From positions 18,465,401 through 18,529,400 of the forward strand of contig OY987299.1 of the NCBI GenBank assembly GCA_963920635.1: DNA of 64,000 nucleotides, given 5' to 3'. Below, one piece after another: positions 11,481-29,958 of the stretch. The notes beneath the pieces were generated by a model. It saw only the letters and a program-made list of their open reading frames with translations, searched no databases and was not told the DNA's origin. The translations under genes and the position numbers were made by a program. This DNA is from Pseudeuparius sepicola. Taxonomy: Eukaryota; Arthropoda; Insecta; Coleoptera; Anthribidae. Within the stretch, counting starts at the first letter, position 1. Each line of letters opens with the position of its first letter.

Positions 11481-11631
11481 GTTCGGCGGTCTAATTAAAT
11501 TTAAAAATAGAATTAAAAGTGACGTGTTAAAGCTGCTCTAAACAGAGATTACATGTCATCAGTACCTATTACTCTCCGGTTCAACGAATGTTCATACCTA
11601 CGTCACAACTCCCGTCCTTGTCTTACTCATG

Positions 11632-11712
11632 AATATACGATGGATATCGGTCGTATATCGTCGTATACTCATGAATATACGATGGTATATCGACCGATAT
11701 CCATCGTAAGTA
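11632..11712. repeat. Nested palindrome near cassette end
   Basis: The arms TACGATGGATATCGGTCG and CGACCGATATCCATCGTA enclose a second, smaller imperfect palindrome around 'ctcatgaa'. The right copy has only 'ctcatgaatatacgata' at this point (about 27070-27087), so roughly 66 bp differ between the copies. It may be a hairpin expanded here or collapsed there. Confidence 0.8.
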
Positions 11713-11740
11713 GTAATACAAAGAGAGTACGGGACCACTT

Positions 11741-11985
11741 TGACCTCAGTTGACCCCTTGATCCTGAGAGTCCCCTACGGCCCGAGGTCACGGGAGCAAA
11801 GTGGCTACGTCATGCCCGAGGTCACGTGACGTCACCGGATGACCCCAGTTGACCCCTAGATCCTGATAGGTTAACCTTTGACCTTTGGGCCACGTGTGAC
11901 CCCCAGTTGACCCCCCCCCCCCACTCCAACGACGGGGCAACCCCCACTCCAACGGCTTGGTGGGGTGAGGTTTATATATTCGTGC
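11741..11985 (+). promoter_or_regulatory. Upstream control block and TATA promoter of small gene
   Basis: Three spaced repeats of TGACC(T/C)-CAGT-TGACCC occur at 11741-11756, 11840-11856 and 11897-11913 (half-site spacing 4, 4 and 5). TTAACCTTTGACCTTTGGG at about 11871-11889 reads on the other strand as two AGGTCA-like half-sites one base apart. CACGTG (11823-11828) overlaps TGACGTCA (11827-11834). The TATA box tttatatatt is at 11971-11980, about 25 bp before a possible initiator agcagtt, with the ATG at 12050. The same block exists in the right copy. Nuclear-receptor or bZIP/bHLH binding is inference. Confidence 0.6.
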
Positions 11986-12049
11986 GCAAGAGCAGTTTTC
12001 CCGTTATATACACTTACAATTTCATACAGTCTGATTTGCCGAGTTCAAA

Positions 12050-12355
12050 ATGCAGTCGTTCCTGAATCACCTGAACAAGAATTTGATCGTCAAGAAATTC
12101 GAAAGCGTTCAAAATATGGAGGTGGATGAAAATTTTCAAATCACGAGCGTGGACAAAGTGAACACGCAATACGGAGAGAAGGTCTACGTCGAGTTCGAAG
12201 AATTTAAGACGGTGCTGCCGCAACGATACACGGCCGAGTTTACGCCCCAACGGATCGAAGAAATTAACAGGGATATCGGTAACGGAAGGAGGTATTACAT
12301 GAAGAGTCTTGTGCCCGTCGGCCTATCTACAAATATCGAATTTATTGTAGAATGA
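12050..12355 (+). CDS. Small virus-derived protein (101 aa), left copy
   Basis: This is an intact ORF from the first ATG after a TATA promoter, followed 84 bp later by AATAAA, so it looks like a complete one-gene unit. I do not recognise a named family with certainty. The middle segment, 'VNTQYGEKVYVEF' followed by a basic/aromatic stretch 'TVLPQRYT', resembles small beta-rich proteins encoded beside Polinton-like genes in arthropods, possibly single-strand-DNA-binding OB-folds; that is a guess from pattern only. No signal peptide or membrane segment is seen. The right copy (26430-26735) differs at one residue (Val for Gly near position 88), so both versions remain open. It lies upstream of the capsid genes on the same strand. 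Confidence 0.7.
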   Translation: MQSFLNHLNKNLIVKKFESVQNMEVDENFQITSVDKVNTQYGEKVYVEFEEFKTVLPQRYTAEFTPQRIEEINRDIGNGRRYYMKSLVPVGLSTNIEFIVE

Positions 12356-12439
12356 GAAAACTGGACATTTGAAAAATTTGAATGTGATATGCTGTAGTTA
12401 ATAGGAAAATATAACAAATATATATAATAATTGATTTCT

Positions 12440-12445
12440 AATAAA
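12440..12445 (+). terminator. Polyadenylation signal of the 101-aa gene
   Basis: AATAAA lies inside TAATAAACGTTTAAAA. The identical 16-bp string recurs at 15376-15391 after another ORF end, so it looks like a shared module of the viral genome. Confidence 0.65.
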
Positions 12446-12489
12446 CGTTTAAAAGCCATTTGTTTGTTTTTTCAACTCTTGGAAAAAGG

Positions 12490-12528
12490 TATAAATAAAA
12501 CTCATCGTTGTTCGTTCAGCTCAGTGTG
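12490..12528 (+). promoter_or_regulatory. TATA promoter of phospholipase-protease-penton unit
   Basis: TATAAATAAAA starts at 12490. An arthropod-like initiator TCAGTG is at 12521, about 31 bp downstream, and the ATG follows at 12529. The predicted leader is only about 6-8 nt, which matters for how the downstream genes are translated. Confidence 0.6.
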
Positions 12529-13317
12529 ATGTCGTCTTTCGCTGGAAGTGGATTGGTTAATAGCGTCATCAATAGGTTGCCAGAATTACACCTTCCCGGC
12601 TACCAGTACTGCGGTCCAGGAACAAAGTTGGAGAAACGCCTTGCTCGTGGAGATCCCGGCATCAATAAGCTAGACGCCGCTTGCAAAGATCACGACATCG
12701 CATATTCCAAAAATAAGTCTCTGGAAGAGAGACATAAAGCAGACAAAGAATTGGAAAATCGAGCGTGGGAGCGAGTGGTATCGAGGGACGCTAAATTCGA
12801 CGAAAAAGCTGCCGCGTGGTTCGTTACAAATACGATGAAGGTCAAACGCAAGGTCGGTATGGGCATAAATAAGCGCCCGGTTTCGTTTAAAAGAGACATC
12901 GTCAAAAAAGTTGAAAGATCTCTGAAAAAAACTTTGAGCAACAGTCAGTTGAATGACATGAAGCACTTGAAGAAAGCGTCGTTGGTTGCTTTAAAAGCGG
13001 CACGAATAGCCGTTAAGAAGGCGGGTGGAAAGAGGAACGTGAAAATTCCTCGCACAATTCCGTTCCAGCATACCGGCGGATTTCTTCCTTTACTGCCCCT
13101 CCTAGGTGCCTTGGGCGCCCTTGGTTCGGTGGCAGGCGGTGCCGGTGCTGTAGCCAAGACAATTATCGACGCAAAAAATGCGAAGAAGCTTTTGGAAGAA
13201 CAAAAACGGCATAATCGGTCGATGGAAGCCATCGGAAAGGAAGGCTCCGGCTTATATTTACGTAAAAATAAGAATGGATTAGGACTGTTCCTTAAGAAAC
13301 AAAAAAACTCCCAATGA
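12529..13317 (+). CDS. Phospholipase A2-domain virion protein, left copy (262 aa)
   Basis: The N-terminal part carries the parvovirus-type secreted PLA2 signature: calcium loop YCGPG at residues 27-31 and catalytic pair H55-D56 within DAACKDHDIAY. In viruses this domain acts on endosomal membranes during entry. Residues ~100-175 are very basic. Residues 183-212 form a Gly/Ala/Leu-rich hydrophobic stretch, and the C-terminus has a GLYL...GLGLFLKK repeat (241-257), a layout seen in PLA2-like proteins of Polinton/adintovirus elements and reminiscent of adenoviral core/membrane-lytic proteins. I chose the ATG at 12529 because it follows the TATA/initiator; the longer frame would start at a TTG. 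The stop overlaps the protease start as ATGA. The right copy has one extra residue and one Lys/Arg change. Confidence 0.88.
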   Translation: MSSFAGSGLVNSVINRLPELHLPGYQYCGPGTKLEKRLARGDPGINKLDAACKDHDIAYSKNKSLEERHKADKELENRAWERVVSRDAKFDEKAAAWFVTNTMKVKRKVGMGINKRPVSFKRDIVKKVERSLKKTLSNSQLNDMKHLKKASLVALKAARIAVKKAGGKRNVKIPRTIPFQHTGGFLPLLPLLGALGALGSVAGGAGAVAKTIIDAKNAKKLLEEQKRHNRSMEAIGKEGSGLYLRKNKNGLGLFLKKQKNSQ

Positions 13318-13685
13318 AGCTACCCAATAGACCGCTGTCCGACGAAGATATATTGAATTACGTCGAAATTTTAAAAATACCATATTTCAGAGGCGTCTTT
13401 ATGAGAGATACACTTCAGTCGACGCCGAAAAATTACGAAGCGGCCATTTTAAATTTAGACGTGCAACGCAACAAAGGAACGCATTGGGTAGCTTACAAAA
13501 AAAGAGGCTGTGCCGTAGAATATTTCGATAGCTTTGGCGCTTTGAAACCGCCCAAAGAACTGATTCGATATTTTGGAAAGGGTGTCAAGGTCACGTACAA
13601 TAACGACGCCTATCAAAATTTTAACGAAATAAATTGCGGTCATTTGTGCATTGAATTTCTCTATAAAAGGTGGGGGACAACTTAA
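13314..13685 (+). CDS. Adenain-type cysteine protease, left copy (123 aa)
   Basis: The predicted role is virion maturation by cleavage of capsid or core precursors. The order of visible catalytic residues fits the adenovirus-protease/Ulp1 fold: His57 in GTHWVAY, Asp72 in VEYFDSFG, Gln101 (oxyanion) and Cys108 in NCGHLC. At 123 residues it is shorter than adenoviral adenain (about 200) but matches the compact proteases of Polinton-like elements. The start codon overlaps the PLA2 stop (ATGA, 13314-13317), and the penton-like gene starts 12 nt after its stop, so all three probably share one transcript. The right copy differs at two residues. All catalytic residues are kept in both. Confidence 0.88.
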   Translation: MKLPNRPLSDEDILNYVEILKIPYFRGVFMRDTLQSTPKNYEAAILNLDVQRNKGTHWVAYKKRGCAVEYFDSFGALKPPKELIRYFGKGVKVTYNNDAYQNFNEINCGHLCIEFLYKRWGTT

Positions 13686-13697
13686 AAGTCGCCAGTC

Positions 13698-14426
13698 ATG
13701 TCATTGTTGTTTACTCTACACGGACGCACATCCACGCTCTCCATCGATTTTGACAGTCCGATAGTTTTGGACCCAAACGCCGAGTACGGTTTAGCTTTGC
13801 TGGGATTCCACACGTTCAACAGCATACCGAATATCGAAGAGGAGAGCGGCGACAACAATTTTCGTTATCTAACCGGTAGTTTCGGTGCTAGCAAAGAAAT
13901 ATCACTTCCCACCGGTTCATACGAGATAAAGAATATAGAAGAGCACATACGGAAGAATTTGAAAAAATCGGAAGACGAAAACGATAGCGGTAGCATATCG
14001 ATACAAGCGAACAAGAGCACTCTGCAGTGTGAGATCTACAGCGATCAATATACCATAGATTTTGTTACAGCCGGGTCTATTGGAAGACTTTTGGGGTTTT
14101 CCGAACGATACTTAGATAAAGGGAAAGTACACGTTTCAGATTTGCCGGTAAATATCATTAAAGTTAGAACGATACATATAGATTGTAACATCACAGCCGG
14201 TGCTTATTACGTAAACCGACCTACGCACACGATTTACGAATTCGCCGTTGGGGTCGACCCCGGTTACGCCATAGACGAAACCCCTAAAAATTTACTATAC
14301 GTGCCTGTCACGAAACGTGAAATAAACAACCTGACCATAAACATCCTCGATCAGAATTTCAAGCCTGTCAATTTCAGAGGTGAAGAAATTATCGTTAGAT
14401 TGGAAGTGAAACGACTGTCTATGTGA
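13698..14426 (+). CDS. Penton-like minor capsid protein, left copy (242 aa)
   Basis: The ORF is intact, with its ATG 12 nt behind the protease stop. The pattern 'YGLALLGFHTFNSIPNI', a later 'LPTGSYEIKNI', 'IGRLLGFSERYL', and a C-terminal 'NFRGEEIIVRLEVK' matches the single-jelly-roll minor capsid (penton-like) family found next to double-jelly-roll capsid genes in Polintons and adintoviruses; the family assignment is from remembered pattern, not from a search. In the virion it would form the five-fold vertex. It is mostly beta-strand-like with no membrane segment. The right copy (24356-25084) differs by a single Val/Ile. Near identity with no stop in either copy argues that the duplication is young or the genes are maintained. 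Confidence 0.8.
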   Translation: MSLLFTLHGRTSTLSIDFDSPIVLDPNAEYGLALLGFHTFNSIPNIEEESGDNNFRYLTGSFGASKEISLPTGSYEIKNIEEHIRKNLKKSEDENDSGSISIQANKSTLQCEIYSDQYTIDFVTAGSIGRLLGFSERYLDKGKVHVSDLPVNIIKVRTIHIDCNITAGAYYVNRPTHTIYEFAVGVDPGYAIDETPKNLLYVPVTKREINNLTINILDQNFKPVNFRGEEIIVRLEVKRLSM

Positions 14427-14460
14427 AATGCGTTTGGTTTTTGGAGGCAACTACCAACCG

Positions 14461-14468
14461 TATAAAAG
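14461..14468 (+). promoter_or_regulatory. TATA box of major capsid gene
   Basis: TATAAAAG followed by GC-rich sequence lies 114 bp upstream of the capsid ATG at 14582. The open frame at 14428-14634 spanning this site is therefore best read as promoter and leader rather than a gene. Confidence 0.6.
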
Positions 14469-14581
14469 GCGGTTTAGTGACCTCCGACCCTCATTGACGA
14501 AGACGTCATCGAAGTGGAAACACCATTGCAACTTGAATCTAACGCCGGAAAACCGTCGATTTCTAGAAGCACTCGGCTACC

Positions 14582-15316
14582 ATGTCGTTAACGCCGCAAG
14601 TATTCGACGTGCACCGCACTCCAACCTTCGATGAGTCCATTCAGCGATTAGAGCAACGAACATATTACCCGTTTGTGAAATCTTTTCTGAATAATGACAT
14701 TGTGGAAATAACGATTAACCAAGGAGACACTTGGTTATTGATGTATGACGCTGCAATTTATATCAAAGGTAAAATAGAGAAGAAAACGGGAACGGGGAAA
14801 TGTAGTTTTGCTAATAATGGAGGTGCGTTTCTCTTCGATTCGATTTCATATGAACTGAATGGAAAGGAATTGGAAATAGTTCGAAATCCTGGAATTGTGA
14901 GTGCTATCAGAACATATCTATGCTACGCCCCCAGCGATGAAAAATTCCTGGTAACTGCAAGTTGGTCTGGTCCAACCAAGCCTTTGACCGTAAATTTGGA
15001 TGGAACATTTAGCTTGAGAATACCTCTGAAACAATTGTTTGGAATATTTAACGATTATCAGTTGGCCACTTGCGGAAAACAAACTTTAAGATTAACACGA
15101 GCTAGAAACGATAACAACTCTTTACTTCTGGAAGATGATCCTGCATCTGCTGCTGAATTGACGGCAGAAATAACAGTTTCCAATGTCGAGTTAAAAGCGA
15201 AACATATTCAACCTAGCGATTTCATTAGATTGGATCTGCTTCAGAACCATGACGAAGCTGGAGTACAGAAGAAAACTGCAACAATATTTGAAGAATTTAG
15301 AAGCATTGAAATATGA
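14582..15316 (+). pseudogene. Major capsid protein (double jelly roll), 3'-truncated left copy
   Basis: Residues 1-221 match the right copy and belong to the double-jelly-roll (hexon-like) major capsid family of Polinton/adintovirus-type elements. The pattern includes 'INQGDTWLLMYDAAIYIKG' with repeated beta-rich segments, and 'SISYELNGKELE'. After codon 221 (base 15244) the sequence switches to DNA unrelated to the capsid gene, giving 23 foreign residues before a chance stop. The second jelly roll's latter part, present on the right, is missing. The protein would not assemble normally if made; that is inference. A TATA box lies at 14461. The break shares 'cttcag' with the intact order on the right. 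Confidence 0.82.
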
Positions 15317-15391
15317 ACTTATGTTATATGAAATTAAAATGAAGATAAAACATATTGACTTACACAATTAATTTTTAATAAACGTTTAAAA
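15245..15391 (+). pseudogene. 3' end of an unidentified coiled-coil ORF with polyA signal
   Basis: In the frame +1 to the capsid fusion, 15249-15371 is open for 40 codons and reads as a basic/Leu-rich helix (KLEYRRKLQQYLKNLEALKY), ending in TAA six bases before AATAAA (15377-15382). The terminator string TAATAAACGTTTAAAA is the same as behind the 101-aa gene, so this was probably the last exon of another gene of the same virus, brought next to the capsid gene by a deletion or rearrangement at 15244/15245. The 5' part is absent from the window. Similar helices end MADF/SANT-type proteins; I cannot assign a family. Confidence 0.6.
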
Positions 15392-15439
15392 ATCTTTTGT
15401 TGTGTTTTTTTATAAGAATCTTTGTGTTGAAGGGAAAAC

Positions 15440-15513
15440 ACCTGAAGCATCATATTATAATAAAACTCTCACTCTAAGCAATAATATCACTCTATTCCAC
15501 TGTTATGTGTATA
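15440..15513 (+). promoter_or_regulatory. Possible orphan TATA promoter at end of viral remnant
   Basis: Downstream of the polyA module the string 'catattataataaaactctcactct' (15448-15472) resembles the layout before the phospholipase gene (polyA, T-rich spacer, TATA). No gene follows: a foldback-type end CAGGGTGATTCTTC begins at 15514. Confidence 0.3.
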
Positions 15514-16980
15514 CAGGGTGATTCTTCACTTATACACATAAATTTGGAAAATTGTAGGTTGTCAAGTAATGGCTAATAATGAAAAAAAAAGTCTAATAAA
15601 ATTGTTATCGATAAGGTCTGCGTTTGTGATCTTATGAACCATAATTTTTAATTTATTTGTGCAAATAAACCCCGAATTGTTCAAGTACACAAAATTATAA
15701 CTCAGCTGTTGCGTCGCATCGGGTTACTCGCTGCGAACGCGTGACCGCATAGTAAATATATAGTAAGAGAAAACACGTGGAATAGTTCACGACAGACGCC
15801 TGCTTTGTTTGGTCGAGCACTCAGCGATTTTGCTGAAACCGCATATAGAACAATAGGCTACAAATTTCACCCGAAGGCCTCCGTCCGACTGGCATGTAGT
15901 TGCCCGAACAAAATCCACCCTTCCCCCTTGCACGCGTTTCGCGCATGCGCAGTTCCGCACTTTTGATACCTATGAAAATTCGAAAAATTTTGAAAATTTT
16001 TTATTCAAAAAATGTAATTTTAAAAAGGTCCTGATCCTATAATCCCGATAACATTTTGGGAAATTTTCATTTTTTGACGGTAAAATGTACAAGACAAGAC
16101 TCAGACGAATGTTTTATATACAAGTGCAGATAGAATTTTTTCGAGTGACTGATAAAAACAGTTATTATAATAGTTAATCGGAAGGCCCCAGATAACATAG
16201 GAAATTTTGTTTGAACAAAATCTGTAAAAAAATCCAAGACGTGAAAATGTAGGTAGAATTTTCGAATAAGTTTTGTATACCGGTAAAAATATATGTAAAG
16301 GTAAAAATAACGTCAGTTTCACTTGGAAAAAAATGATGAAAAAATTTCAGTAAAAAAAATACGATGTAGAGGTTGTGCCAAAAAAAATTGGAAATAATTA
16401 TTTATTCCAGTAAAATATACACAAGACCGAAAAAGGTAATTGCGCGGCTGTCCCATTTTATACACCCTAGCTGTTTCAGTTCATCTCGTTTGGAAAAATT
16501 TTAGGGGTTATTACTTTTTTAAATACCGGTTTCCTCAACCTTATTTGAAAGTAAATATTTTTTAGTTCCCCACAGAAGGAAATAATGACGATATTTTATA
16601 CCGGTGGATTCAAAAAATATATAAGGTTAGGAAAAAACCTTGGTAGGCAAACGCGGCTCTGCTGACCAGACAAAAAAAAACCTTAGTCGACAAATAATGG
16701 CCTATAAGAAGGGTGCGTGATTCCACTGCGTATCAGTTCGAGTGCTCCAAGATGCAAGTAAGTATATACCAGCTGTCTCATTTTTAAACAGCTAGATATT
16801 TGGAAACCTTTCGTAAAAAAATTCCCAAGGATTACATGAGCAAAAGAAAGAAAAAAATGTAAATATACCAGCTGTCCCATTTATAAACCGCTTGATATCT
16901 TGGAAACGAAAACTTATATAAAGGAAGTAAAAGCCATATCTTAATAGGCGGAGGACCGACTGTCATTCAGACAGGTGAAA
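15514..16980. other. Non-coding TE debris
   Basis: It begins with a single foldback-like end (15514). Repeated strings 'gctgtcccatttta' (~16448, ~16772, ~16867) and 'tcttggaaac' suggest decayed repeat units. No ORF with a recognisable domain is present. Confidence 0.5.
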
Positions 16981-16989
16981 AATTTTTGT

Positions 16990-17250
16990 GATTTTTTGTA
17001 GAAGTTTTTTGCCAAAAATTTTTTTTGTCAATTTTTTTTTGCCAAAATTTTTTTTTGGCAGAATTTTTTTTTTGCCAAAATTTTTTTTTGCCAAAATATT
17101 TTTTGCCAATTTTTTTTTTGCCAAATTTTTTTTTTGCCAAAATTTTTTTGTCAAAATTTTTGTTTGTAAAATTTTTTTTGACATTTTTTTTTGTCGAATT
17201 TTTTTTGCCAATTTTTTTTTGCCAAATTCTTTTTCGACAAAATTTTTTTT
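16990..17250. repeat. Poly-T/GCCAAAA minisatellite
   Basis: About 17 degenerate units of the form (T)6-10-GCCAAA(A) lie in a row. Open frames across it encode only Phe/Leu/Pro or Lys/Asn/Ile repeats and are artefacts of the low complexity. Confidence 0.85.
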
Positions 17251-17260
17251 GATACAAATA

Positions 17261-18851
17261 TAATTGCTAACGTTTAATTTGTTTACCCCATTTACGAAAA
17301 TGATAACAAAATTGGATCAGACAAGATGTTTTTTCGAAGTATAGTTTTTAAACACAGGGTGCCACCACCGGTTTTACGATATAGGTTTCAAAATGCGACG
17401 CAAGTACATAAAAAAATACCCTAGAGATAAGAAAACAAAATACAACTCACCGAAAGATCCTTGATGATGTATAAAAAGAAATCAGGTTACATCTAATGCC
17501 CCAGACAGTAAAATAAACATCCCCGAGCTATCAGATATAACCAAACATCATTTTTCTAACGGCACAGTCATTTTCACGGGAAAAACAACCAGTAACCGTT
17601 CAAATTCCATAGATAGGTACTGCCGTAATCCAAAATTTCACTGAACTACGCGTATCTATTATACTGAAGTAGGTACTGATACACTTCCATCTTTCCAAAG
17701 AAAAACAAACACGAAACTCAGACTTATCATATATTTATTACAACGCCTCGATAGAGTCTTTATCTGTGGCCACGACCGAGAATCTACTGAAGCAAGTGCG
17801 ACGCATAGGACGTGAAAAGTGCCGAGTTGGTTTTATTAAACAATGAAACTTATACCTACGTATATATAAAATAAATGAGAAATATGCCAGAGATGTGAAA
17901 CCTAATTGTGTTGCAAGTTTGAGCGTCCAAAAAAAAATATTGGCTTTAATTTTTTAAGGTGAGAAACACATCTAACAGCCAGTTTGGAAATATACAAGGC
18001 AAAAAAAGTAGTGATGTGGCTGTCCCATTTTATGTTTTATACAGGTTGGGTTATTTTAGAATAGTTGTTCAATAGACCGAGACAACATCATAAACGCTTC
18101 CCGTTAGAACAGAATGTGATGAAAAGAAAAATTCCATCTGGGTCAAGCTACTACATAACCAAAATAAAAAATACTGAACGTTATAAAATTTAAAAAATCA
18201 TATTTTCAACGGATTTTTATCCTCTGAAAATTGTTCTTGTGTAAAATTCAGTTTCTCTGGGTCAAGCTAGGTGGTAACTATATAACCAAAATAAAAAATA
18301 CTGAACGTTATAAAATTTAAAAAATCATATTTTCAAGGGATTTTTGTCCTCTGAAAATTGGTTTTGTGTAAATTGAGTTTCAATAAGTTACTAATTGAGA
18401 TAATAGGAAAAAAATCTTAAGAATCTCTTATAGAATTCTGAGACAACGACCCTGAGAGTAAATATCATACAAAAATCTTTGTGCGTTGACTTTCAACTCA
18501 ATTTAATAATTAGGTTTAATAATGACAATTTTCTCGATTATCTAGAATCAAAAATATTGCGAGTGGCAATTTTCTAGATATCATGTGAAGCCTTATTATT
18601 GCGTCGTAAGTTAGAGGATCCAAAAATATTGGCTTAAATTGTTTAGTAAATGCGATTAAAATATGTTTAGTTTATCAACAGTTAATTGTAACAGCTTATA
18701 ATCTTAGAAGCTAAACTCTTTAAAAAATTTTTTAGACAAAAAGTTGTAGTTTAATAATGGTCAGTTGGATTCCTTTTGAATCATGTTTGCATATTACCTA
18801 CAAGGAGTTACAACCTCAAAACATAGAAATCGCTCATTTTAAACCGATTTA
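17261..18851. repeat. Non-coding, with a ~120-bp tandem duplication at 18139-18380
   Basis: Two adjacent copies share 'gggtcaagcta', 'ataaccaaaataaaaaatac', 'tgaacgttataaaatttaaa' and 'ctctgaaaatt', with units starting at about 18139 and 18258. The remainder is AT-rich without genes. Confidence 0.6.
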
Positions 18852-19216: not shown

Positions 19217-19399
19217 ACAAAACGCACTGTTGACTTTACTTACGTGAATAGTAAGCCTATAATACGTATCGAAAACAGAGAAATATTCAGGTCAAGAAAA
19301 AAATGGCCTAATTTACAATAAAAAATATAGCAGACAACATAGCGATGACACCGATTGACCCGTTTTGCTGGTAAAAAGTAAACAAAGGTACCTATTGCG

Positions 19400-19645: not shown

Positions 19646-20415
19646 TCAAGGGAATCGTTTTTCATATTTTTGACGGATTTTCGTCCTTTTTGCAGACGTT
19701 ACACTGCTAAATTGATCCGTTTTGCTGGCAAAAAATATTTCTATCGCCATGACTGAGTCACGACGCTTGGCCTTATGCGATAAACAATGTGTGTGGGTAG
19801 AGACATTCGCGGGAAAAGGTGTAACATAATATGCATGCTTTCTTCATGCAATGAATTGTAAATAAAATTCATACATCGAACTGTGACTGGTGACTGGATA
19901 AAAATGCCGTAATAAGAATCGACTGTTTTCATGAATAACCTCATTGAATTTTATGCAGTTTTAGAAAGTTAATGTGGGTTGGAAAATTTGTATTATATGC
20001 TGGATGCAGAGAAAAAGTGGAAATTTCATATAAGTTGAGCTGTTTATGAATGAAAAAAAGTTGAGAGAACAATACCTACTTATACAAACACAACAGAACG
20101 AGACAGTCTTAAAGAAAATGGGCAATTCACTCTTTGTGTATAGGACTCGAACAGCGACTTATTATTTTAATCGGTACTGTTGTAAGAAATTCAGAAATGG
20201 AATTTTGGTTTATTTAATAAAAATGTATACTTACACATTTTATCTTTATCTTTTTATGGTGCACTTTAACATATTTTCAGTTTGTAACATGTTTCTCAGG
20301 AGAACAAAATCAGGAAATACTTGTCTCTAGGATTATATTATTATTACATTTTAGTTTCAACATGTTTTTGCACTTATAAGGGAGGATAGAAAAAAACCAA
20401 AAATATACATAAAAC

Positions 20416-20424
20416 ATATTTATT
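20416..20424 (-). terminator. Polyadenylation signal of spacer gene
   Basis: On the - strand 'cacaataaatatg' provides AATAAA about 150 bp after the stop at 20568. A nearer alternative, 'tctttattt', reads in the wrong orientation. Confidence 0.35.
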
Positions 20425-20567
20425 GTGTATAAAAATATAAAAGAAAATATACTTAAAAGCTAAGAATACGTATTAAATTTAAAACTAAAAGAAGGATAGG
20501 TATCTATAAACAACGTTGGAAAATAAAGACTCAAAAATTTTTTAAAAATATTTAATGTGAGAAAAAA

Positions 20568-21310
20568 CTACTTTTTTACCACATTAAATCTTTTTAAAAT
20601 ACCAGCAGACAGCCGTTTATCCCTCTCCATTTTCTCAATTTTGGCTATAGATACCTGCTCCCTTTTTCTCAGTCGTTCTTTCTCTCTCCTAATAGTCGCC
20701 AGTCGATGTTGCTCCTCTCTCAAGGATTTTAGATTTTCGGCGTCCTTTTGTTTCAGCCCTTTTGAGACCTGTAATATATAGGAACCGAGTCAAGTACTCC
20801 CAGGACTAGTCAGCTCCTCGAATTCATCCTCGCTGTCCATCTGCTGACTAACACTAATGTGCACGTCACTAAAGGAGTCCTCGCTGTCCATGCCCAACTG
20901 ACGCATGTCTTTACCACCATTTCCTTTCAACTGTGGGTTATTCGTGTTTTCCACACCACACTGCTCGACGTCCTCTTGCCGATGAACCGGTGAAATAATG
21001 GAATTCGGACAGAATGCCATTATCTCGTCGTAACAAGGCACTTGGGAGGGCGACACGAAGGACGCACTATTCAAATCGGGCATGTTGTATGACTGTGCAG
21101 AGTCGATGGTTGGCTGAAAAGAAAAAAAATAATAAGTTTAATTTAGAAAAAAAGTATTTTTCAGAAATAAAGTTTAAAAAATAATTTTGTATGAAAAAAA
21201 TTGTTGAAGATTACCAGAAAACCAAGATTTATACTTACAGGCATTATTAGCATATTGCTAAGGATAGTAGGTTTCTTTGTCGAGAGAGACAACTTCTTAG
21301 GGTGCTGCAT
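20568..21310 (-). pseudogene. Two-exon gene in cassette spacer, with one in-frame UGA
   Basis: Exon 1 is 21310-21239 (24 codons), ending CCT|GTAAGT. The intron is 21238-21114 (125 bp) with a pyrimidine-rich acceptor ending TTTTCAG. Exon 2 is 21113-20568. Splicing keeps the frame. After ~131 codons there is a UGA (20792-20790, context ACT TGA CTC), after which the same frame stays open for 73 codons to TAG at 20568. The product has an acidic Ser/Asp/Glu middle (DSEDSFSDVH, DSEDEFEE) and a strongly basic coiled-coil tail (REEQHRLATIRREKERLRKR). No family is recognised; transposon accessory proteins often end in such helices. The UGA may be a disabling mutation, read-through, or a boundary of a very short intron (an AG lies at 20769-20770). 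A TATA box and polyA signal flank it. Confidence 0.5.
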
Positions 21311-22905
21311 TGTAAGTATCCAAAATACACAAAAAACACACCACTGGAACTACTATTGTGAATCAAGAAACTTATAAGAGAGGAGGCTGTGAACTGGCTA
21401 ATGGCCATTCAACAAACCTCTTTAAAGGGAAAAAATTCGATGTCAGTCAAAAAATATAGTAGGAGAAAAACGATTTGCCCACTCTAGAATTTTTAAAAAA
21501 CTTGTTTATTGATCTGAGCGAGACTGTGTGGCGTTATGCGTGGTCATTAAATTTAATATGTGGTAAACAAGAGGCCACGGGGATGAACGATATAATGCAA
21601 TGTAATCAAAAAAAAATTAGCTAGACTGTATGGCGTTATACACGTTCTTTAGGGCCGGACTGGGCTGATGGACTAGGGGGAATTAGATTGTTAATACATC
21701 GCAGAGTCTTTGCGAAATTGAATGTGATAATGTTTAAAGAAACAAATCGCGCATGGGTTGTCCAATCATATCGTTGCACAGTTAATTAAAAATGTAGACG
21801 CAAAAACATATCTCCCAAAAAAAAAGTTCAACCTACTTTCCGCTTAAAAATCGAACAACAGAGGTATCTCCCATCGCTCACAAAACCAATTCCAGAAAGG
21901 ACAAGAACGCCAAGGCCGGGCGCACTCAAATTTCGTATCGGTGTTTTCTTTTAGTCGAAAAATATTTCCAAGGTAAAAGCTGAACTTTTGGGGTGTATGT
22001 TGAAAATTTACATTTTGGGGTACGAATGAGGTTGATCGCGGCGTCTCGGCTAGAAGGTCAAAATGGGTCAAAATGGGCCTAAGGTTTTGAAATTTTTTTT
22101 TACACCTACCTAATTCTTCATCTTGAACAAGTTTCATTAACAACATTTTAACGTGTAAGCTACAGAAAAGGCACTCTTCTAAAATAGTATAATATTTTTA
22201 ATTAAAAGATACCTCTGTAAGGATATTAGGCAGACTTTTAGGCTATGTGTTCTCTAGAAAAATTGTTAGAGTGCTTGCTTTAGGTAGCGAAAATCGCAGG
22301 GGTAGAAAGTCACGGTGGAGTCATTGATAAACGGTTCCACTTATCGAAATTTGGAAGGAAGTCACTGTGGTAATCATCGTTAAAATCTTCTATTACCTAC
22401 GCTGCTATAATTAAATATTTATCTACGGCTTGGTTCTGTTTCTTTTCCAATGCCTAAATAGTACATTTTATAATATTAATTTTGTTTCCTCTCCAATATA
22501 TTGTACGGTGTTTGTATCACATATATCTGTGAAAACCAACGTTTCAGATATTTCTCAGTTTTTAAGAGCGGTGTTTGGTCAGAAACGATCTAGTGGATGA
22601 TGGGGTAGTAAAAAGGCCGCCGTTTTTCCAGAGCCTGTTTTGAATACACCCCACCAAGTCTTGACTTGTCATTATGATAGGTATTGCATACTTTTGTATA
22701 GGAGTCAGCTTTTGTTAACCCAACTTCTTTCTGTTATCTTCTTCCACCATTTTAATCTCAATTCATCTACCCGACGCCACAATATGTTACTAATCGTGAA
22801 TCCACTACGGCGACTTTCATCTTAATGGGGATCTGTCTACCCCAACCACTTTATTTATCGATTTCGGAAAATGTATGGTAATGGGAGGGAAACTAAACAC
22901 CGATA
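21311..22905. other. Non-coding; decayed FB-2 copy at 21735-22215
   Basis: The part 21735-21850 shares 'aaacaaatcgcgcatgggtt' and 'cgttgcacag' with the foldback at 7581, and 22195-22215 carries the mirrored 'attaaaagatacct' end. The rest shows no gene. Confidence 0.5.
21373..21382 (-). promoter_or_regulatory. TATA box upstream of spacer gene
   Basis: On the - strand 'cttataag' lies about 70 bp before the ATG at 21310, and a possible initiator 'attcac/ttccagtgg' follows by ~25-40 bp. Confidence 0.4.
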
Positions 22906-22928
22906 TTTTATTTTTTATTATTTTATTA
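22906..22928 (-). terminator. Polyadenylation signals of major capsid gene, right copy
   Basis: On the - strand 'taataaaataataaaaaat' lies 60-80 bp after the capsid stop codon (22986-22988). It supplies the 3' end that the left copy has lost. Confidence 0.55.
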
Positions 22929-22985
22929 GGTCAAGTACAAGTACAATAATACCTTACACCTAAAAAAACTCTCCGTAAAATTAAA

Positions 22986-24200
22986 CTACATAAGTTCCCT
23001 AACTACTTCACTTAATGGTAAATATTCGATGGTACTATCATGTATAATAATACAATAAGCTCGGGTTGAGGCTGGAAATCCTTCGTTACTCTCGATGTCC
23101 AGCTTTACGTCAACCGTGGTGCTTTTCATGGACTCTATTCGTCGGGAACAGTCGATGACAAAGAGAGCTGCGTTATTTTTGTATTCGGTGTAGCTAAGCA
23201 AGGGATGCCTCTCATTCATATAACTAGAGCAAAAGTCTACGTAATTATGGTAGGCCTATAGATAGTCATTGCCATTAAAATCCAATCTCAGCCGTTCAAA
23301 AGGAAAATATTCACCATTTAACATCCGCTATATTTATATTATCGAATACGGAAGGGTCCTTTCTAGCATTTTCATTGCGAATCCTTTGAAATCCCACTAT
23401 AACGTATCGAGGACTCGACACGGACATTGAAGTTTTGACTGACCAAATTTCTCTGTTGGCATTGACTGTAAGACTTGGCAGTTCGTGAAGTTCCCATTTA
23501 CGATACGGTATAATTATAGGGCGATCACGTTTAATAGACTGAAGCAGATCCAATCTAATGAAATCGCTAGGTTGAATATGTTTCACTTTTAACTCGACAT
23601 TGGAAACTGTTATTTCTGCCGTCAATTCAGCAGCAGATGCAGGATCATCTTCCAGAAGTAAAGAGTTGTTATCGTTTCTAGCTCGTGTTAATCTTAAAGT
23701 TTGTTTTCCGCAAGTGGCCAACTGATAATCGTTAAATATTCCAAACAAATGTTTCAGAGGTATTCTCAAGCTAAATGTTCCATCCAAATTTACGGTCAAA
23801 GGCTTGGTTGGACCAGACCAACTTGCAGTTACCAGGAATTTTTCATCGCTGGGGGCGTAGCATAGATATGTGTGATAGCACTCACAATTCCAGGATTTCG
23901 AACTGTTTCCAATTCCTTTCCATTCAGTTCATATGAAATCGAATCGAAGAGAAACGCACCTCCATTATTAGCAAAACTACATTTCCCGGTTCCCGTTTTC
24001 TTCTCTATTTTACCTTTGATATAAATTGCAGCGTCATACATCAATAACCAAGTGTCTCCTTGGTTAATCGTTATCTCCACAATGTCATTATTCAGAAAAT
24101 ATTTCACAAACGGGTAATATGTTCGTTGCTCTAATCGCTGAATGGACTCATCGAAGGTTGGAGTGCGGTGCACGTCGAATACTTGCGGCGTTAACGACAT
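22986..24200 (-). pseudogene. Major capsid protein (double jelly roll), right copy, full span but broken
   Basis: The gene keeps its natural start (24200), TATA box (24314-24321), C-terminus and polyA region, spanning about 405 codons, which is the compact end of the double-jelly-roll capsid range. It is interrupted three times: a one-base frameshift near 23873, a second frameshift beside the TGA at 23313-23311, and a TAG at 23258-23256. Open pieces are 24200-23829, 23799-23311 and 23219-22986. The last piece has the typical end of the family, with 'ALFVIDCSRRIESMKSTTVDV' like strands (positions 23170-23100). Compared with the left copy over codons 1-221 there are about four residue changes. 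The other four genes of this copy have no break. Confidence 0.82.
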
Positions 24201-24313
24201 GGTAGCCGAGTGCTTCTAGAAATCGACGGTTTTCCGGCGTTAGATTCAAGTTGCAATGGTGTTTCCACTTCGATGACGTCTTCGTCAATGAGGGTCGGAG
24301 GTCACTAAACCGC

Positions 24314-24321
24314 CTTTTATA
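24314..24321 (-). promoter_or_regulatory. TATA box of right major capsid gene
   Basis: TATAAAAG on the - strand, placed as in the left copy, 114 bp before the capsid ATG. The frame 24148-24354 across it is the mirrored leader, not a gene. Confidence 0.6.
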
Positions 24322-24355
24322 CGGTTGGTAGTTGCCTCCAAAAACCAAACGCATT

Positions 24356-25084
24356 TCACATAGACAGTCGTTTCACTTCCAATCTAACGATAATTTCTTC
24401 ACCTCTGAAATTGACAGGCTTGAAATTCTGATCGAGGATGTTTATGGTCAGGTTGTTTATTTCACGTTTCGTGACAGGCACGTAGAGTAAATTTTTAGGG
24501 GTTTCGTCTATGGCGTAACCGGGGTCGACCCCAATGGCGAATTCGTAAATCGTGTGCGTAGGTCGGTTTACGTAATAAGCACCGGCTGTGATGTTACAAT
24601 CTATATGTATCGTTCTAACTTTAATGATATTTACCGGCAAATCTGAAACGTGCACTTTCCCTTTATCTAAGTATCGTTCGGAAAACCCCAAAAGTCTTCC
24701 AATAGACCCGGCTGTAACAAAATCTATGGTATATTGATCGCTGTAGATCTCACACTGCAGAGTGCTCTTGTTCGCTTGTATCGATATGCTACCGCTATCG
24801 TTTTCGTCTTCCGATTTTTTCAAATTTTTCCGTATGTGCTCTTCTATATTTTTTATCTCGTATGAACCGGTGGGAAGTGATATTTCTTTGCTAGCACCGA
24901 AACTACCGGTTAGATAACGAAAATTGTTGTCGCCGCTCTCCTCTTCGATATTCGGTATGCTGTTGAACGTGTGGAATCCCAGCAAAGCTAAACCGTACTC
25001 GGCGTTTGGGTCCAAAACTATCGGACTGTCAAAATCGATGGAGAGCGTGGACGTGCGTCCGTGTAGAGTAAACAACAATGACAT
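24356..25084 (-). CDS. Penton-like minor capsid protein, right copy (242 aa)
   Basis: The ORF is intact and identical to the left copy except for Ile instead of Val in the segment 'IYEFA(I/V)GVDPGY'. Domain and role are as for 13698-14426: a single-jelly-roll vertex protein of a Polinton/adintovirus-like virion. The start is 12 nt after the protease stop. Retention of an open 242-codon frame next to a capsid gene with three breaks is notable; with so few silent and replacement changes, age and selection cannot be separated by eye. Confidence 0.8.
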   Translation of the reverse strand: MSLLFTLHGRTSTLSIDFDSPIVLDPNAEYGLALLGFHTFNSIPNIEEESGDNNFRYLTGSFGASKEISLPTGSYEIKNIEEHIRKNLKKSEDENDSGSISIQANKSTLQCEIYSDQYTIDFVTAGSIGRLLGFSERYLDKGKVHVSDLPVNIIKVRTIHIDCNITAGAYYVNRPTHTIYEFAIGVDPGYAIDETPKNLLYVPVTKREINNLTINILDQNFKPVNFRGEEIIVRLEVKRLSM

Positions 25085-25096
25085 GACTGGCGACTT

Positions 25097-25468
25097 TTAA
25101 GTTTTCCCCCACCTTTTATAGAGAAATTCAATGCACAAATGACCGCAATTTATTTCGTTAAAATTTTGATAGGCGTCGTTATTGTACGTGACCTTGACAC
25201 CCTTTCCAAAATATCGAATCAGTTCTTTGGGCGGTTTCAAAGCGCCAAAGCTATCGAAATATTCTACGGCACAGCCTCTTTTTTTGTAAGCTACCCAATG
25301 CGTTCCTTTGTTGCGTTGCACGTCTAAATTTAAAATGGCCGCTTCGTAATTTTTCGGCGTCGACGGAAGTGTATCTCTCATAAAGACGCCTCTGAAATAT
25401 GGTATTTTTAAAATTTCCACGTAATTCAATATATCTTCGTCGGACAGCGGTCTATTGGGTAGCTTCAT
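25097..25468 (-). CDS. Adenain-type cysteine protease, right copy (123 aa)
   Basis: Same architecture as the left copy, with His57, Asp72, Gln101 and Cys108 preserved. The two differences (Gln/Pro at residue 35, Thr/Lys at residue 122) are outside the catalytic motifs. The start overlaps the phospholipase stop by ATGA at 25465-25468, so coupled termination-reinitiation is the simplest way to translate it from the shared transcript; that is inference. Confidence 0.88.
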   Translation of the reverse strand: MKLPNRPLSDEDILNYVEILKIPYFRGVFMRDTLPSTPKNYEAAILNLDVQRNKGTHWVAYKKRGCAVEYFDSFGALKPPKELIRYFGKGVKVTYNNDAYQNFNEINCGHLCIEFLYKRWGKT

Positions 25469-26256
25469 TGGGAGTTTTTTTGTTTCTTAAGGAACAGTCC
25501 TAATCCATTCTTATTTTTACGTAAATATAAGCCGGAGCCTTCCTTTCCGATGGCTTCCATCGACCGATTATGCCGTTTTTGTTCTTCCAAAAGCTTCTTC
25601 GCATTTTTTGCGTCGATAATTGTCTTGGCTACAGCACCGGCACCGCCTGCCACCGAACCAAGGGCGCCCAAGGCACCTAGGAGGGGCAGTAAAGGAAGAA
25701 ATCCGCCGGTATGCTGGAACGGAATTGTGCGAGGAATTTTCACGTTCCTCTTTCCACCCGCCTTCTTAACAGCTATTCGTGCCGCTTTTAAAGCAACCAA
25801 CGACGCTTTCTTCAAGTGCTTCATGTCATTCAACTGACTGTTGCTCAAAGTTTTTTTCAGAGATCTTTCAACTTTTTTGACGATGTCTCTTTTAAACGAA
25901 ACCGGGCGCTTATTTATCCCCATACCGACCTTGCGTTTGACCTTCATCGTATTTGTAACGAACCACGCGGCAGCTTTTTCGTCGAATTTAGCGTCCCTCG
26001 ATACCACTCGCTCCCACGCTCGATTTTCCAATTCTTTGTCTGCTCTATGTCTCTCTTCCAGAGACTTATTTTTGGAATATGCGATGTCGTGATCTTTGCA
26101 AGCGGCGTCTAGCTTATTGATGCCGGGATCTCCACGAGCAAGGCGTTTCTCCAACTTTGTTCCTGGACCGCAGTACTGGTAGCCGGGAAGGTGTAATTCG
26201 ACTGGCAACCTATTGATGACGCTATTAACCAATCCACTTCCAGCGAAAGACGACAT
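25465..26256 (-). CDS. Phospholipase A2-domain virion protein, right copy (263 aa)
   Basis: YCGPG calcium loop and the His-Asp pair in CKDHDIAY are intact, followed by the same basic middle, hydrophobic Gly/Ala/Leu stretch and GLYL...GLGLFLKK tail. Compared with the left copy it has an extra Val near residue 19 (a 3-bp indel, so the frame is kept) and Arg for Lys at residue 71. The start at 26256 is chosen because TATA (26288-26295) and an initiator precede it as in the left copy. Parvoviruses carry this domain at the N-terminus of VP1, but here the protein ends after a hydrophobic region and has no parvoviral capsid jelly roll. Confidence 0.88.
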   Translation of the reverse strand: MSSFAGSGLVNSVINRLPVELHLPGYQYCGPGTKLEKRLARGDPGINKLDAACKDHDIAYSKNKSLEERHRADKELENRAWERVVSRDAKFDEKAAAWFVTNTMKVKRKVGMGINKRPVSFKRDIVKKVERSLKKTLSNSQLNDMKHLKKASLVALKAARIAVKKAGGKRNVKIPRTIPFQHTGGFLPLLPLLGALGALGSVAGGAGAVAKTIIDAKNAKKLLEEQKRHNRSMEAIGKEGSGLYLRKNKNGLGLFLKKQKNSQ

Positions 26257-26285
26257 CACACTGAGCTGAACGAACAACGATGAGT

Positions 26286-26295
26286 TTTATTTATA
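26286..26295 (-). promoter_or_regulatory. TATA box of right phospholipase-protease-penton unit
   Basis: TATAAATAAA on the - strand, 32-39 bp before the ATG at 26256, mirrored from 12490. Confidence 0.6.
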
Positions 26296-26339
26296 CCTTT
26301 TTCCAAGATTTGAAAAAAAAAACAAATGGCTTTTAAACG

Positions 26340-26345
26340 TTTATT
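26340..26345 (-). terminator. Polyadenylation signal of right 101-aa gene
   Basis: AATAAA inside the same TAATAAACGTTTAAAA module as in the left copy (one base differs at the 5' edge). Confidence 0.6.
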
Positions 26346-26429
26346 AGAAATCAATTATTATATATATTTGTTATATTTTCCTATTAACTACAGCATATCA
26401 CATTCAAATTTTTCAAATGTCCAGTTTTC

Positions 26430-26735
26430 TCATTCTACAATAAATTCGATATTTGTAGATAGGCCGACGGGCCCAAGACTCTTCATGTAATACCTCCTTC
26501 CGTTACCGATATCCCTGTTAATTTCTTCGATCCGTTGGGGCGTAAACTCGGCCGTGTATCGTTGCGGCAGCACCGTCTTAAATTCTTCGAACTCGACGTA
26601 GACCTTCTCTCCGTATTGCGTGTTCACTTTGTCCACGCTCGTGATTTGAAAATTTTCATCCACCTCCATATTTTGAACGCTTTCGAATTTCTTGACGATC
26701 AAATTCTTGTTCAGGTGATTCAGGAACGACTGCAT
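26430..26735 (-). CDS. Small virus-derived protein (101 aa), right copy
   Basis: Intact and one residue different from the left copy (Gly for Val near position 88). It sits first in the cassette behind its own TATA box (about 26805-26812) and control block. Family unknown; the pattern and the uncertainty about an OB-like fold are as for 12050-12355. Being separately promoted and terminated, it may be expressed at a different time from the capsid genes; that is inference. Confidence 0.7.
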   Translation of the reverse strand: MQSFLNHLNKNLIVKKFESVQNMEVDENFQITSVDKVNTQYGEKVYVEFEEFKTVLPQRYTAEFTPQRIEEINRDIGNGRRYYMKSLGPVGLSTNIEFIVE

Positions 26736-26800
26736 TTTGAACTCGGAAAATCAGACTGTATGAAATTGTAAGTGTATATAACGGGAAAACTGCTCTTGCG

Positions 26801-27045
26801 CACGAATATATAAACCTCACCCCACCAAGCCGTTGGAGTGGGGGTTGCCCCGTCGTTGGAGTGGGGGGGGTCAACTGGGGGTCACACGTGGCCCAAAGGT
26901 CAAAGGTTAACCTATCAGGATCTAGGGGTCAACTGGGGTCATCCGGTGACGTCACGTGACCTCGGGCATGACGTAGCCACTTTGCTCCCGTGACCTCGGG
27001 CCGTAGGGGACTCTCAGGATCAAGGGGTCAACTGAGGTCAAAGTG
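26801..27045 (-). promoter_or_regulatory. Control block of right cassette
   Basis: Mirror of 11741-11985: GGGTCA-ACTG-(A/G)GGTCA repeats, CACGTGACGTCA-type overlap near 26945-26960, AAAGGTCAAAGGTTAA near 26895-26910, and the TATA box within 'cgaatatataaacc' (26804-26817). The homopolymer here is 8 G against 12 C on the left. Confidence 0.6.
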
Positions 27046-27146
27046 GTCCCGTACTCTCTTTGTATTACTACTATCGTATATTCATGAGTAAGGCAAGGAC
27101 TGGAGTTGTGACGTAGGTATGATTGGTATAAACCAAAGTCTATCTA

Positions 27147-27749
27147 CAGGGTGTTAGTAAATAAGTGCGACAAACTTTAAGGGGCGATTCTACATGAAAA
27201 AATAATGACAATTTGCTATATAAACGTAGGTCCGCAAATGCTTCGTTTCCGATATACAGGTAGTCAAATTTAAAAAAAAAATCATAATTTATTTATTGTT
27301 ATAGCTATTGCGCACCTAACTAAAAATGTTTTATTCGAGGTATTTTTATTTTCATTTGTTGTTTTGATTTATTGTTGCTGTATAGGATAGGTTTTTGATA
27401 TTGTAATAGAAATTAAAAATAAGCGTTATGTTGTTTTATTTTTTTGCATAAAAATGGCGGCCCCTGTGAAAAAAAGGTAAGAGAGCTTTTTTGTCGCACG
27501 CCACTGATTAACATAAAATTTTTAATCGGGTGTCAAAAAATGCGCTTTCTATTCCTGTTAAAACCCCCAAATTTCATTTGAATATCTGAATCCGTTTCAG
27601 CGCAATAAATAAATTTTTTTTTTTTACTTTGACTCCCTGTATATCGGAAACGAAGCATTTGCGGACCTACGTTTATATAGCAAACTGTCCTTATTTTTTC
27701 ATGTAGAATCACCCTTTAAAGTTTGTCGCACTTATTTACTAACACCCTG
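27147..27749. mobile_element. MITE inserted in right cassette end
   Basis: The terminal inverted repeats are over 100 bp: CAGGGTGTTAGTAAATAAGT at the left and its reverse complement at the right, both continuing through 'gcgacaaactttaa' and 'aacgtaggtccgcaaatgct'. It lies between 'gttcata' and 'cctacgtcac', which are adjacent in the left copy, so it arrived after or independently of the duplication. Clean target duplication is not visible; about 40 extra bases accompany it. Confidence 0.8.
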
Positions 27750-27785
27750 GGGGTATTGGGTATGAACATTCGTTGAACAGAGAGA

Positions 27786-27935: not shown

Positions 27936-29958
<2,023 letters not shown>

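Follow-up and report, generated by a model that had tools for sequence, protein, structure and literature searches.

A chimeric Polinton-type element with two left ends in the genome of the beetle Pseudeuparius sepicola

A 64,000-nucleotide stretch of the Pseudeuparius sepicola genome (assembly GCA_963920635.1, contig OY987299.1, positions 18,465,401 to 18,529,400), referred to here as the window, carries two nearly identical sets of virus-derived genes in inverted orientation on either side of a spacer. Is this a gene duplication that arose in the chromosome, or are these the two ends of one mobile element whose terminal repeats enclose genes? To our knowledge, little is understood of how linear virus-like transposons maintain their ends or restore them. 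A single genome that holds normal elements, abundant forms with a right end on both sides (R-R) and two left-left forms, whose joints and target duplications can be read, allows end copying to be studied as a series of events.

Boundaries of the inserted element

Self-comparison of the window bore out the inverted pair of gene cassettes reported in a preliminary description. Positions 11709-15244 and 27072-23539 form one inverted repeat, first detected as four blocks, with 99.12% identity over 3,539 aligned columns (23 mismatches and 8 gap positions), a similarity far beyond chance. Both arms carry a small gene, a phospholipase A2 gene, an adenain-like protease gene, a putative minor capsid gene and major capsid sequence (Table 1). 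The arms measure 3.5 kb, less than the 3.7 kb or more that had been claimed.

The region between 11709 and 27072 is a single inserted element of 15,364 bp. It has AG...CT termini of the Polinton type, and a 6-bp target site duplication, ATCGTA, flanks both arms externally; together these features indicate one integration event and sustain the earlier proposal of an element with giant, gene-bearing terminal inverted repeats. The left terminus of six of the seven other copies compared is identical to the outer ends of the window element, the seventh (L021) having a variant first 100 bp. The structure had previously been drawn out to 11572..27785; the similarity outside the element belongs to a palindromic host repeat. 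Joining the host flanks without the element produces an inverted self-match across the join (162 columns, 92.6% identical), and the palindrome restored in this way is an internal record of the empty site.

Table 1. Positions of the element, its parts and its host flanks within the window
Feature	Positions	Strand	Remark
Host flank, left part of host palindrome	11593..11708	.	joined-flank self-match
Target site duplication ATCGTA, left copy	11703..11708	.	
Left arm, left end of capsid-bearing Polinton-type element	11709..15244	+	starts at family left terminus
Portion equal to normal 645-bp terminal inverted repeat	11709..12352	+	begins AGTAGTAATACAAAG
Small gene, 101 aa, inside terminal repeat	12050..12355	+	ORF
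Phospholipase A2-domain protein, 262 aa	12529..13317	+	PF08398 (Phospholip_A2_4), E 6.4e-14
Adenain-like cysteine protease, 123 aa	13314..13685	+	weak matches
Putative minor capsid protein, 242 aa	13698..14426	+	position and size only
Major capsid gene, cut at codon 222, fused to foreign sequence	14582..15316	+	
Junction A, capsid gene to right-end sequence	15243..15244	.	2-bp microhomology AG
Right-end subterminal region (Rsub), here inverted	15243..16980	+	
T-rich tandem array, normally adjoining Rsub	16985..17265	+	
Core of R-R element type	17271..22801	+	17271-19778 in both R-R arms; 19778-22801 in R-R centre
Junction B, R-R core to capsid-side sequence	22801..22802	.	1-bp microhomology
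Right arm, longer piece of same left end, reversed	22802..27072	-	23539-27072 pairs with left arm
Major capsid gene, broken (three pieces, two frames)	22986..24200	-	
Putative minor capsid protein, second copy	24356..25084	-	
Adenain-like protease, second copy	25097..25468	-	
Phospholipase A2-domain protein, second copy	25465..26256	-	
Small gene, 101 aa, second copy	26430..26735	-	ORF
Target site duplication ATCGTA, right copy	27073..27078	.	
Host flank, right part of host palindrome, then interrupted	27079..27122	.	
Another inverted-repeat insertion splitting right host palindrome	27123-27758		

Gene content and chimeric core

The 123-aa protease matches Peptidase_C5 weakly in Pfam (E 0.04) and has weak matches in the PDB to the cysteine protease S273R (E 0.0099) and adenain (E 0.58). 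A Pfam scan gave no convincing family for the 242-aa protein, which has 633 homologues; among the 120 listed, one, a longer protein (P0234), bears a double-jelly-roll name and the remainder are unnamed, hypothetical or uncharacterised. The 101-aa gene of the terminal repeat is an orphan for which a homologue search found no match. A double-jelly-roll capsid match (PF21738, E 1.4e-19) is present in the window, and neither capsid copy of the element is intact. Between 9 and 30 kb, the window has no stretch of DNA that matches the integrase-polymerase region of seven normal copies, a profile scan of 10 frames returned no PolB or rve integrase family in the element, and an ATPase was not found there either. 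The element is, to judge from its sequence, a non-autonomous derivative, short of a complete Polinton with PolB and rve integrase.

The spacer of about 8 kb noted earlier does separate the arms, but it is heterogeneous: 15243-22801 represents the core of a different element, of the abundant R-R type, and the right capsid gene reaches 22986. The window element is a chimera in which a capsid-bearing left end caps the R-R core on either side, and it has two left ends where an R-R element has right-end arms with normal terminal repeats. The core (17260-22801) recurs at 26 further places, the main matches being 99-100% identical (27 scored of 1,987 candidates), and continues into capsid sequence at none of the 26. 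Junction A was found nowhere else in the genome, either among 40 places scored of 977 candidates or in a search with an odd-joint pattern that detects joints at one point only and with three of the four possible preceding bases, and neither search turned up the same chimera elsewhere, bounded by a target duplication of its own. The pattern gave two matches, with the long form in the window only. A candidate second odd joint at C2:39933731 proved, on direct reading, to be a normal end with one substitution.

Relatives and the origin of the two left ends

Normal relatives of the element are numerous, about 15-18 kb long, with 645-bp terminal repeats (seven read) that already contain the small gene. 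The one normal copy scanned for integrase (L010) encodes an rve integrase (E 7.5e-12) with a Chromo match over residues 285-312 of 313 (E 0.0031, below the Pfam cut-off). A frame of copy L016 matches DNA_pol_B_2 at E 2.2e-6, above the Pfam cut-off, over profile positions 12-76 of 468 only; the match is absent from the frame beside it (502 aa) and from a frame of L010 (691 aa). Normal copies further carry the capsid (PF21738, E 2.8e-70, L010) and the ATPase (Pox_A32, E 2.3e-11, L016), and their protease is indicated weakly, from the window copies. A search of viral contigs for relatives yielded one stretch that matched a pattern, and none was confirmed. The preliminary description had held that copies of normal layout would speak against an inverted structure; all seven other capsid copies read at both sides do have that layout, yet the window locus is a genuine derivative, and another element with two left ends is present in the genome.

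That second element (C1:67231415-67250708) has other breakpoints, its own duplication (CAGCTC) and the interior of a normal element, and is independent of the one in the window; two outward-facing left-marker pairs had been chosen by eye from 98 places. R-R elements are numerous, and in the first 89.7 Mb of C1 there are 38 R-R against 16 left-right pairs among the exact markers listed. The counts rest on exact 26-base markers, neighbours no more than 40 kb apart and the first 100 of 414 right-end matches; one of the R-R pairs counted spans 33.5 kb and could represent two separate elements, and 11 of 119 markers are unpaired.

The chimera with its joints, ends and duplication, and the normal and R-R relatives around it, can be read directly in the assembly, and they probably reflect one integrated element of the Polinton family, adintovirus-like, in which the opposite end type was copied to replace a lost or damaged end before integration. 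One or both ends of a free linear DNA would have been lost or left unfinished, and a new end would have been copied from the opposite end type through micro-homologous template switching. Such copying would extend the 645-bp terminal repeat to 3.5 kb and enclose genes, after which an integrase would insert the extended molecule in one piece, duplicating 6 bp of the target. The core comes from an abundant R-R relative that appears to be non-autonomous, and both ends come from the left, capsid-carrying end of normal elements. We infer that the end was copied while the DNA was free and replicating, not during repair of the chromosome, and that normal elements supply the proteins in trans. End copying before integration is favoured by the outer ends, the target duplications, the restored host palindrome, the core that recurs elsewhere only in the absence of capsid sequence, the 1-2 bp of microhomology at both joints, a junction A found nowhere else in the searches above, the rare base common to both arms at 13176, the second two-left-end element and the R-R elements, the mirror case of those with two left ends. 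Against it stands the position of junction A, no more than 4 bp away from where the terminal repeat normally has its inner edge, which random template switching does not predict. Also against it, the arms overall are not mutual closest relatives: they differ by 0.55% and 1.09% in two stretches, and in the first of these three other copies are closer to the left arm, at 0.38-0.45% (L013, with large indels, was left out of the first-stretch site counts).

A rare base at 13955 is present in the left arm and at C1:144.42 Mb and absent from the right arm; at positions 12466 and 14129 it is the right arm that agrees with L017 and L019, and the left arm differs. Because of these differing states, and because the arms are not closest relatives, two donors may have supplied them. 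This would suit an ordinary R-R element that inserted first and whose two ends were later replaced within the chromosome, through conversion or repair templated by capsid-bearing copies at other loci; the R-R core is present, the terminal repeats offer common homology, and such a change would preserve the duplication. Replacement requires, however, two separate events, each with a non-homologous inner joint of 1-2 bp microhomology. The arms also share a rare base at 13176, for which an exact 23-base match occurs at three places genome-wide, two of them the window arms, and a base at 12422 absent from the eight other copies compared, which makes later end replacement unlikely.

Alternatively, long gene-bearing repeats joined to Rsub could be ancestral, the 645-bp right repeat having arisen by deletion between two AG-containing sites. 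One deletion would suffice, and the window joint and the normal repeat edge are no more than 4 bp apart on the Rsub side. The short form is nevertheless found in seven other right ends, in three R-R ends compared and in L037, and the odd-joint search, with its single joint position, found the long form at no other place. The arms diverge by no more than about 1.3% from the copies compared, and the core is nearly identical to others (99-100%); an ancestral long form is quite improbable. A false inverted duplication, assembled from two capsid-bearing copies, is conceivable in a large and nearly identical family, which can mislead assemblers, but the arms hold private differences over about 3.5 kb (9 in the left and 11 in the right, against 6-7 other copies), the outer ends coincide with the terminus of the family, the target duplications agree, the flanks join into the host palindrome and the second two-left-end element has its own duplication, so that mis-assembly is very improbable. 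The inverted duplication of an ordinary Polinton after its integration, also offered in the preliminary description, is disfavoured by the AG...CT ends and was rejected as first choice, since the target duplications lie outside both arms and the core comes from another element type.

Known systems and target sites

The window element shares AG...CT ends and 6-bp target duplications with Polintons/Mavericks, and normal copies of its family also share the rve integrase, the DNA_pol_B_2 match, the A32-type ATPase, the protease-like gene, the double-jelly-roll capsid and the length of 15-18 kb, whereas no polymerase, integrase or ATPase was found in the window element. Intact vertebrate Mavericks are given repeats of 46-1,447 bp, with a mean of 402, in the available text of PMC8097293; those in the window are 3.5 kb and hold four genes and part of a fifth. 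Adintoviruses combine an rve integrase with a C-terminal chromodomain, and some have duplicate hexon ORFs, as described in parts of PMC11071296. A normal copy's rve integrase, with its weak C-terminal chromodomain match below the Pfam cut-off, may share this combination; the window element, in contrast, shows neither polymerase nor integrase. Other marks of adintoviruses are a PolB with an N-terminal OTU-like domain and a hexon that BLASTp can recognise.

A precedent for end regeneration is offered by truncated virophage elements (EMALEs), said to have TIRs that 'must have regenerated' (PMC8547959), and like them the window element is truncated yet has terminal repeats at its ends, EMALE TIRs being 0.2-2.3 kb (PMC8547959). 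EMALEs differ in their protist hosts, and capsid genes within repeats and two symmetric types are not described in the available text of PMC8547959. Polinton-like viruses of cryptophytes and metagenomes have TIRs that run from hundreds to thousands of bp, in a set filtered for 100 bp-8 kb (PMC12220804, in part), and long TIRs and duplicated MCP genes are described for Polinton-like viruses in sections of PMC4642659. Such long TIRs resemble those of the window element; the host groups are others, and the cited passages describe no gene content for the repeats.

In symmetric defective adenovirus genomes, which are linear protein-primed DNA, a copy of one end can occur at the opposite end. The window derivative differs in being an integrated genomic element. 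It indicates that terminal repeats with genes inside can move, and suggests that such elements can restore a lost end by copying the other; annotation of such loci as inverted gene duplications would overlook the element. More tentatively, the ends might be interchangeable modules, and their regeneration an evolutionary engine that makes symmetric satellites from an autonomous element: abundant R-R forms that draw on a helper for polymerase, integrase and possibly particles, alongside rare left-left forms that double capsid-side genes and any left-end packaging signal. If true, interchangeable ends would be an animal-genome counterpart of the symmetric adenovirus genomes. In adenoviruses the packaging domain is located close to the left end (PMC5033970, in part).

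Target duplications are identical in all nine elements tested, the window's included, a count that leaves out L011/L024 and L032/L033. A family-wide preference for palindromic target sites was considered and rejected, as among nine sites the long palindrome occurs at the window's only; the sole other inverted match, at the L034/L035 site, spans 20 columns.

The inserted element and its host palindrome

The window corresponds to C2:18465401-18529400 in an assembly of 769 Mb and 16 contigs. Its element starts with AG, ends with CT and is flanked on both sides by ATCGTA; identical 6-bp duplications accompany all nine elements tested. Comparison of the window with itself reveals a single long inverted repeat with 99.12% identity over 3,539 columns, its arms differing by 23 mismatches and 8 gap positions. 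The outward-facing, near-identical blocks of the preliminary description, with capsid, phospholipase A2 (PLA2), adenain-type protease and a small gene, are thus confirmed, each arm bearing from outside to inside a 101-aa ORF, a PLA2-domain protein, a short adenain-like protease, a 242-aa protein and double-jelly-roll capsid sequence. The protease displays a weak Pfam match to Peptidase_C5 (E 0.04) and weak structure matches to the cysteine protease S273R of African swine fever virus (E 0.0099) and to adenain (E 0.58). The 242-aa protein has 633 homologues and no convincing Pfam family (best E 0.93), and its position suggests a putative minor capsid protein.

The earlier repeat limits, 11572 and 27785, are too wide because a host palindrome surrounds the element, and the outer similarity belongs to that palindrome. 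When the host flanks are joined with one ATCGTA, the sequence matches itself in inverted orientation across the join (162 columns, 92.6% identity) and a hairpin of -129.5 kcal/mol is predicted (RNA parameters), so the palindrome was most simply intact before insertion. A paralogous piece of it lies in L011, a stretch read around another copy. In the window, the right half of the palindrome is split by a further inverted-repeat insertion with arms 92% alike.

Coordinates of features in the window and at related loci
Feature	Location	Position
Window element	window	11709-27072
Inverted repeat, left arm	window	11709-15244
Inverted repeat, right arm	window	27072-23539
Junction A	window	15243-15244
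Subterminal region (inverted sense)	window	16980-15243
Middle part	window	15243-22801
Core shared with R-R elements	window	17260-22801
Junction B	window	22801-22802
Insertion in palindrome (arms)	window	27123-27758 (27147-27298, 27603-27749)
(TCTA)n array	window	27886-29097
Tc1/mariner-type frame	window	48165-49172
BIR plus RING gene	L010	1993-2496
GNAT-type ORF	L033	1315-1827 (-)
Second two-left-end element	C1	67231415-67250708
Its left-marker pair	C1	67232253/67249820
Paired R-R cores	C3	31611233, 31618434
Left markers, same orientation	C6	49288660, 49291811
Left markers, facing	C2	93449335(-), 93456180(+)
Second capsid subfamily, examples	C2; C1	31500311; 43756519

Normal and right-right elements of the genome

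For the capsid protein, 150 of 2,293 candidates were scored, and the genome contains at least that many matches. Its organism-named relatives among the best 120 of 255 hits belong to beetle genera, which makes a beetle the probable host, although elements of this type are able to move between species. The genome also has a second subfamily of capsids, which shares 74-75% identity with that of the window; its near-identical copies are numerous, and most have 415-aa frames.

The normal (L-R) element was delineated by pairwise comparison of seven other capsid copies, with three neighbouring stretches each. The left terminus of six equals the outer end of both window arms, and the seventh (L021) shares the first 20 bases before entering a variant stretch. 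The right side of all seven features a T-rich tandem array, a right-end subterminal region (gapped in some) and a terminal repeat of ~645 bp. Where both termini were located, in six copies, the computed element length is 14.8-18.4 kb. Over its first 1.6 kb, the capsid stretch has a longest open frame of 413 codons in every copy. Frames between capsid and right end were scanned in two copies. Those of L010 include an rve integrase, which also weakly matches a chromodomain, and a BIR-RING protein; L016 has an A32-type ATPase and, on the opposite strand, a partial DNA_pol_B_2 match. The Pfam scan yielded no polymerase match for the polymerase frame of L010. The BIR plus RING gene is of inhibitor-of-apoptosis type. 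Judged by the ends, repeats and gene content of these normal copies, the family is Polinton-type and, by the integrase criterion of PMC11071296, possibly adintovirus-like, the chromodomain match being weak.

The 101-aa ORF is part of the normal terminal repeat. Its full-length versions end E-stop in left copies and E-P-stop in right copies, placing the inner repeat edge at the last codon. It is full length in 17 of 21 versions found via the exact start, and a search of 5.8 billion proteins returned one word-sharing candidate and no homologue.

The core of the window element has main matches of 99-100% identity at 26 other places (27 scored of 1,987 candidates), none continuing into capsid sequence. 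The right-right (R-R) structure comes from two copies, both read in part and one at both ends. That on C1 at 59.27 Mb bears the terminal repeat, subterminal region, tandem array and the equivalent of 17271-19778 on both sides, with arms of ~5.2 kb and the 6-bp duplication GACGTT. The copy on C2 at 73.63 Mb displays this arrangement on one side (L033), while on the other (L032) the match ends within the subterminal region; its centre holds a GNAT-type acetyltransferase-like ORF, a part missing from the window element, whose core stops at 22801. Exact end markers occur at 414 (right) and 98 (left) places genome-wide. On C1:0-89.7 Mb, with 100 right and 19 left markers, pairing of neighbouring plus-then-minus markers up to 40 kb apart yields 38 R-R pairs and 16 of L-R type and leaves 11 markers without a partner. 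By marker-pair count R-R is the majority form there. Two same-orientation R-R cores lie 7.2 kb apart on C3.

Chimeric make-up and kinship of the arms

By its sequence, the window element is a chimera of the normal and R-R types. A left-end arm extends to capsid codon 222, followed by subterminal region, array and core, ordered and oriented as in R-R elements, and then by the capsid-side sequence of a normal element, reversed, down to the left terminus. Both joints share microhomology with both parents (AG at junction A, one base at junction B), and junction A falls within 4 bp of the usual inner edge of the right terminal repeat. At the DNA level, nothing in window 9-30 kb matches the integrase-polymerase part of normal copies.

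Junction A turned up at no other place: the window alone spans it among 40 scored of 977 candidates. A second two-left-end element with other breakpoints is present. An odd-joint pattern search at the junction A point returned two places, the window and one rejected on direct reading as a normal end with one substitution. Two outward-facing left-marker pairs up to 40 kb apart exist among the 98 places, the window and the second element on C1 (duplication CAGCTC). The latter contains a 3.5-kb interior piece ~97% matching the integrase-polymerase part of normal elements, and its right end carries left-end sequence to the window-13636 equivalent, including the PLA2 gene and the greater part of the protease, before returning into the right repeat at 12158. 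Since these breakpoints differ from those of the window, end replacement occurred at least twice. Elsewhere, a pair of left-end markers 3.15 kb apart on C6 shares one orientation, a different left-end rearrangement, and two on C2 face each other across 6.8 kb.

Relative to six other copies, the first 2.9 kb hold 5 sites private to the left arm, 9 private to the right arm and 2 that are shared and derived, and 641 bp of capsid hold 4 left-private and 2 right-private sites relative to seven. An exact 23-base match at shared base 13176 occurs at three genome places, both arms and C1:144.42 Mb, and shared base 12422 is in both arms and none of eight other copies compared. Against these rare bases, 13955 unites the left arm with C1:144.42 Mb without the right arm, the right arm alone carries the L017/L019 state at 12466 and 14129, and the arms differ by 0.55%, compared with 0.38-0.45% between the left arm and three other copies. 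The arms are not clearly nearest relatives; a shared sublineage is supported in part, short of proof that one arm was copied directly from the other.

Possible mechanism and published repeats

In a linear DNA that is probably protein-primed, one end may serve to rebuild the terminal repeat of the other, and copying past the repeat would generate R-R and two-left-end elements. A precedent comes from truncated virophage elements, whose terminal repeats, according to PMC8547959, must have regenerated. The common ends and duplications suggest that proteins of normal elements could move both forms in trans. Long repeats as such are already known, given the lengths published for intact vertebrate Mavericks (46-1,447 bp; PMC8097293), EMALEs (0.2-2.3 kb; PMC8547959) and cryptophyte PLVs (reaching thousands of bp, with a filter to 8 kb; PMC12220804). 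Duplicated capsid genes are likewise on record for adintoviruses (PMC11071296) and Polinton-like viruses (PMC4642659). In literature outside most subscription journals, neither a Polinton with capsid-side genes at each end nor an abundant right-right partner was found described.

Elsewhere in the window are a tetranucleotide array of ~1.2 kb and a transposase frame of Tc1/mariner type, open over 335 aa (DDE_3, E 1.8e-16; HTH_Tnp_Tc3_2).
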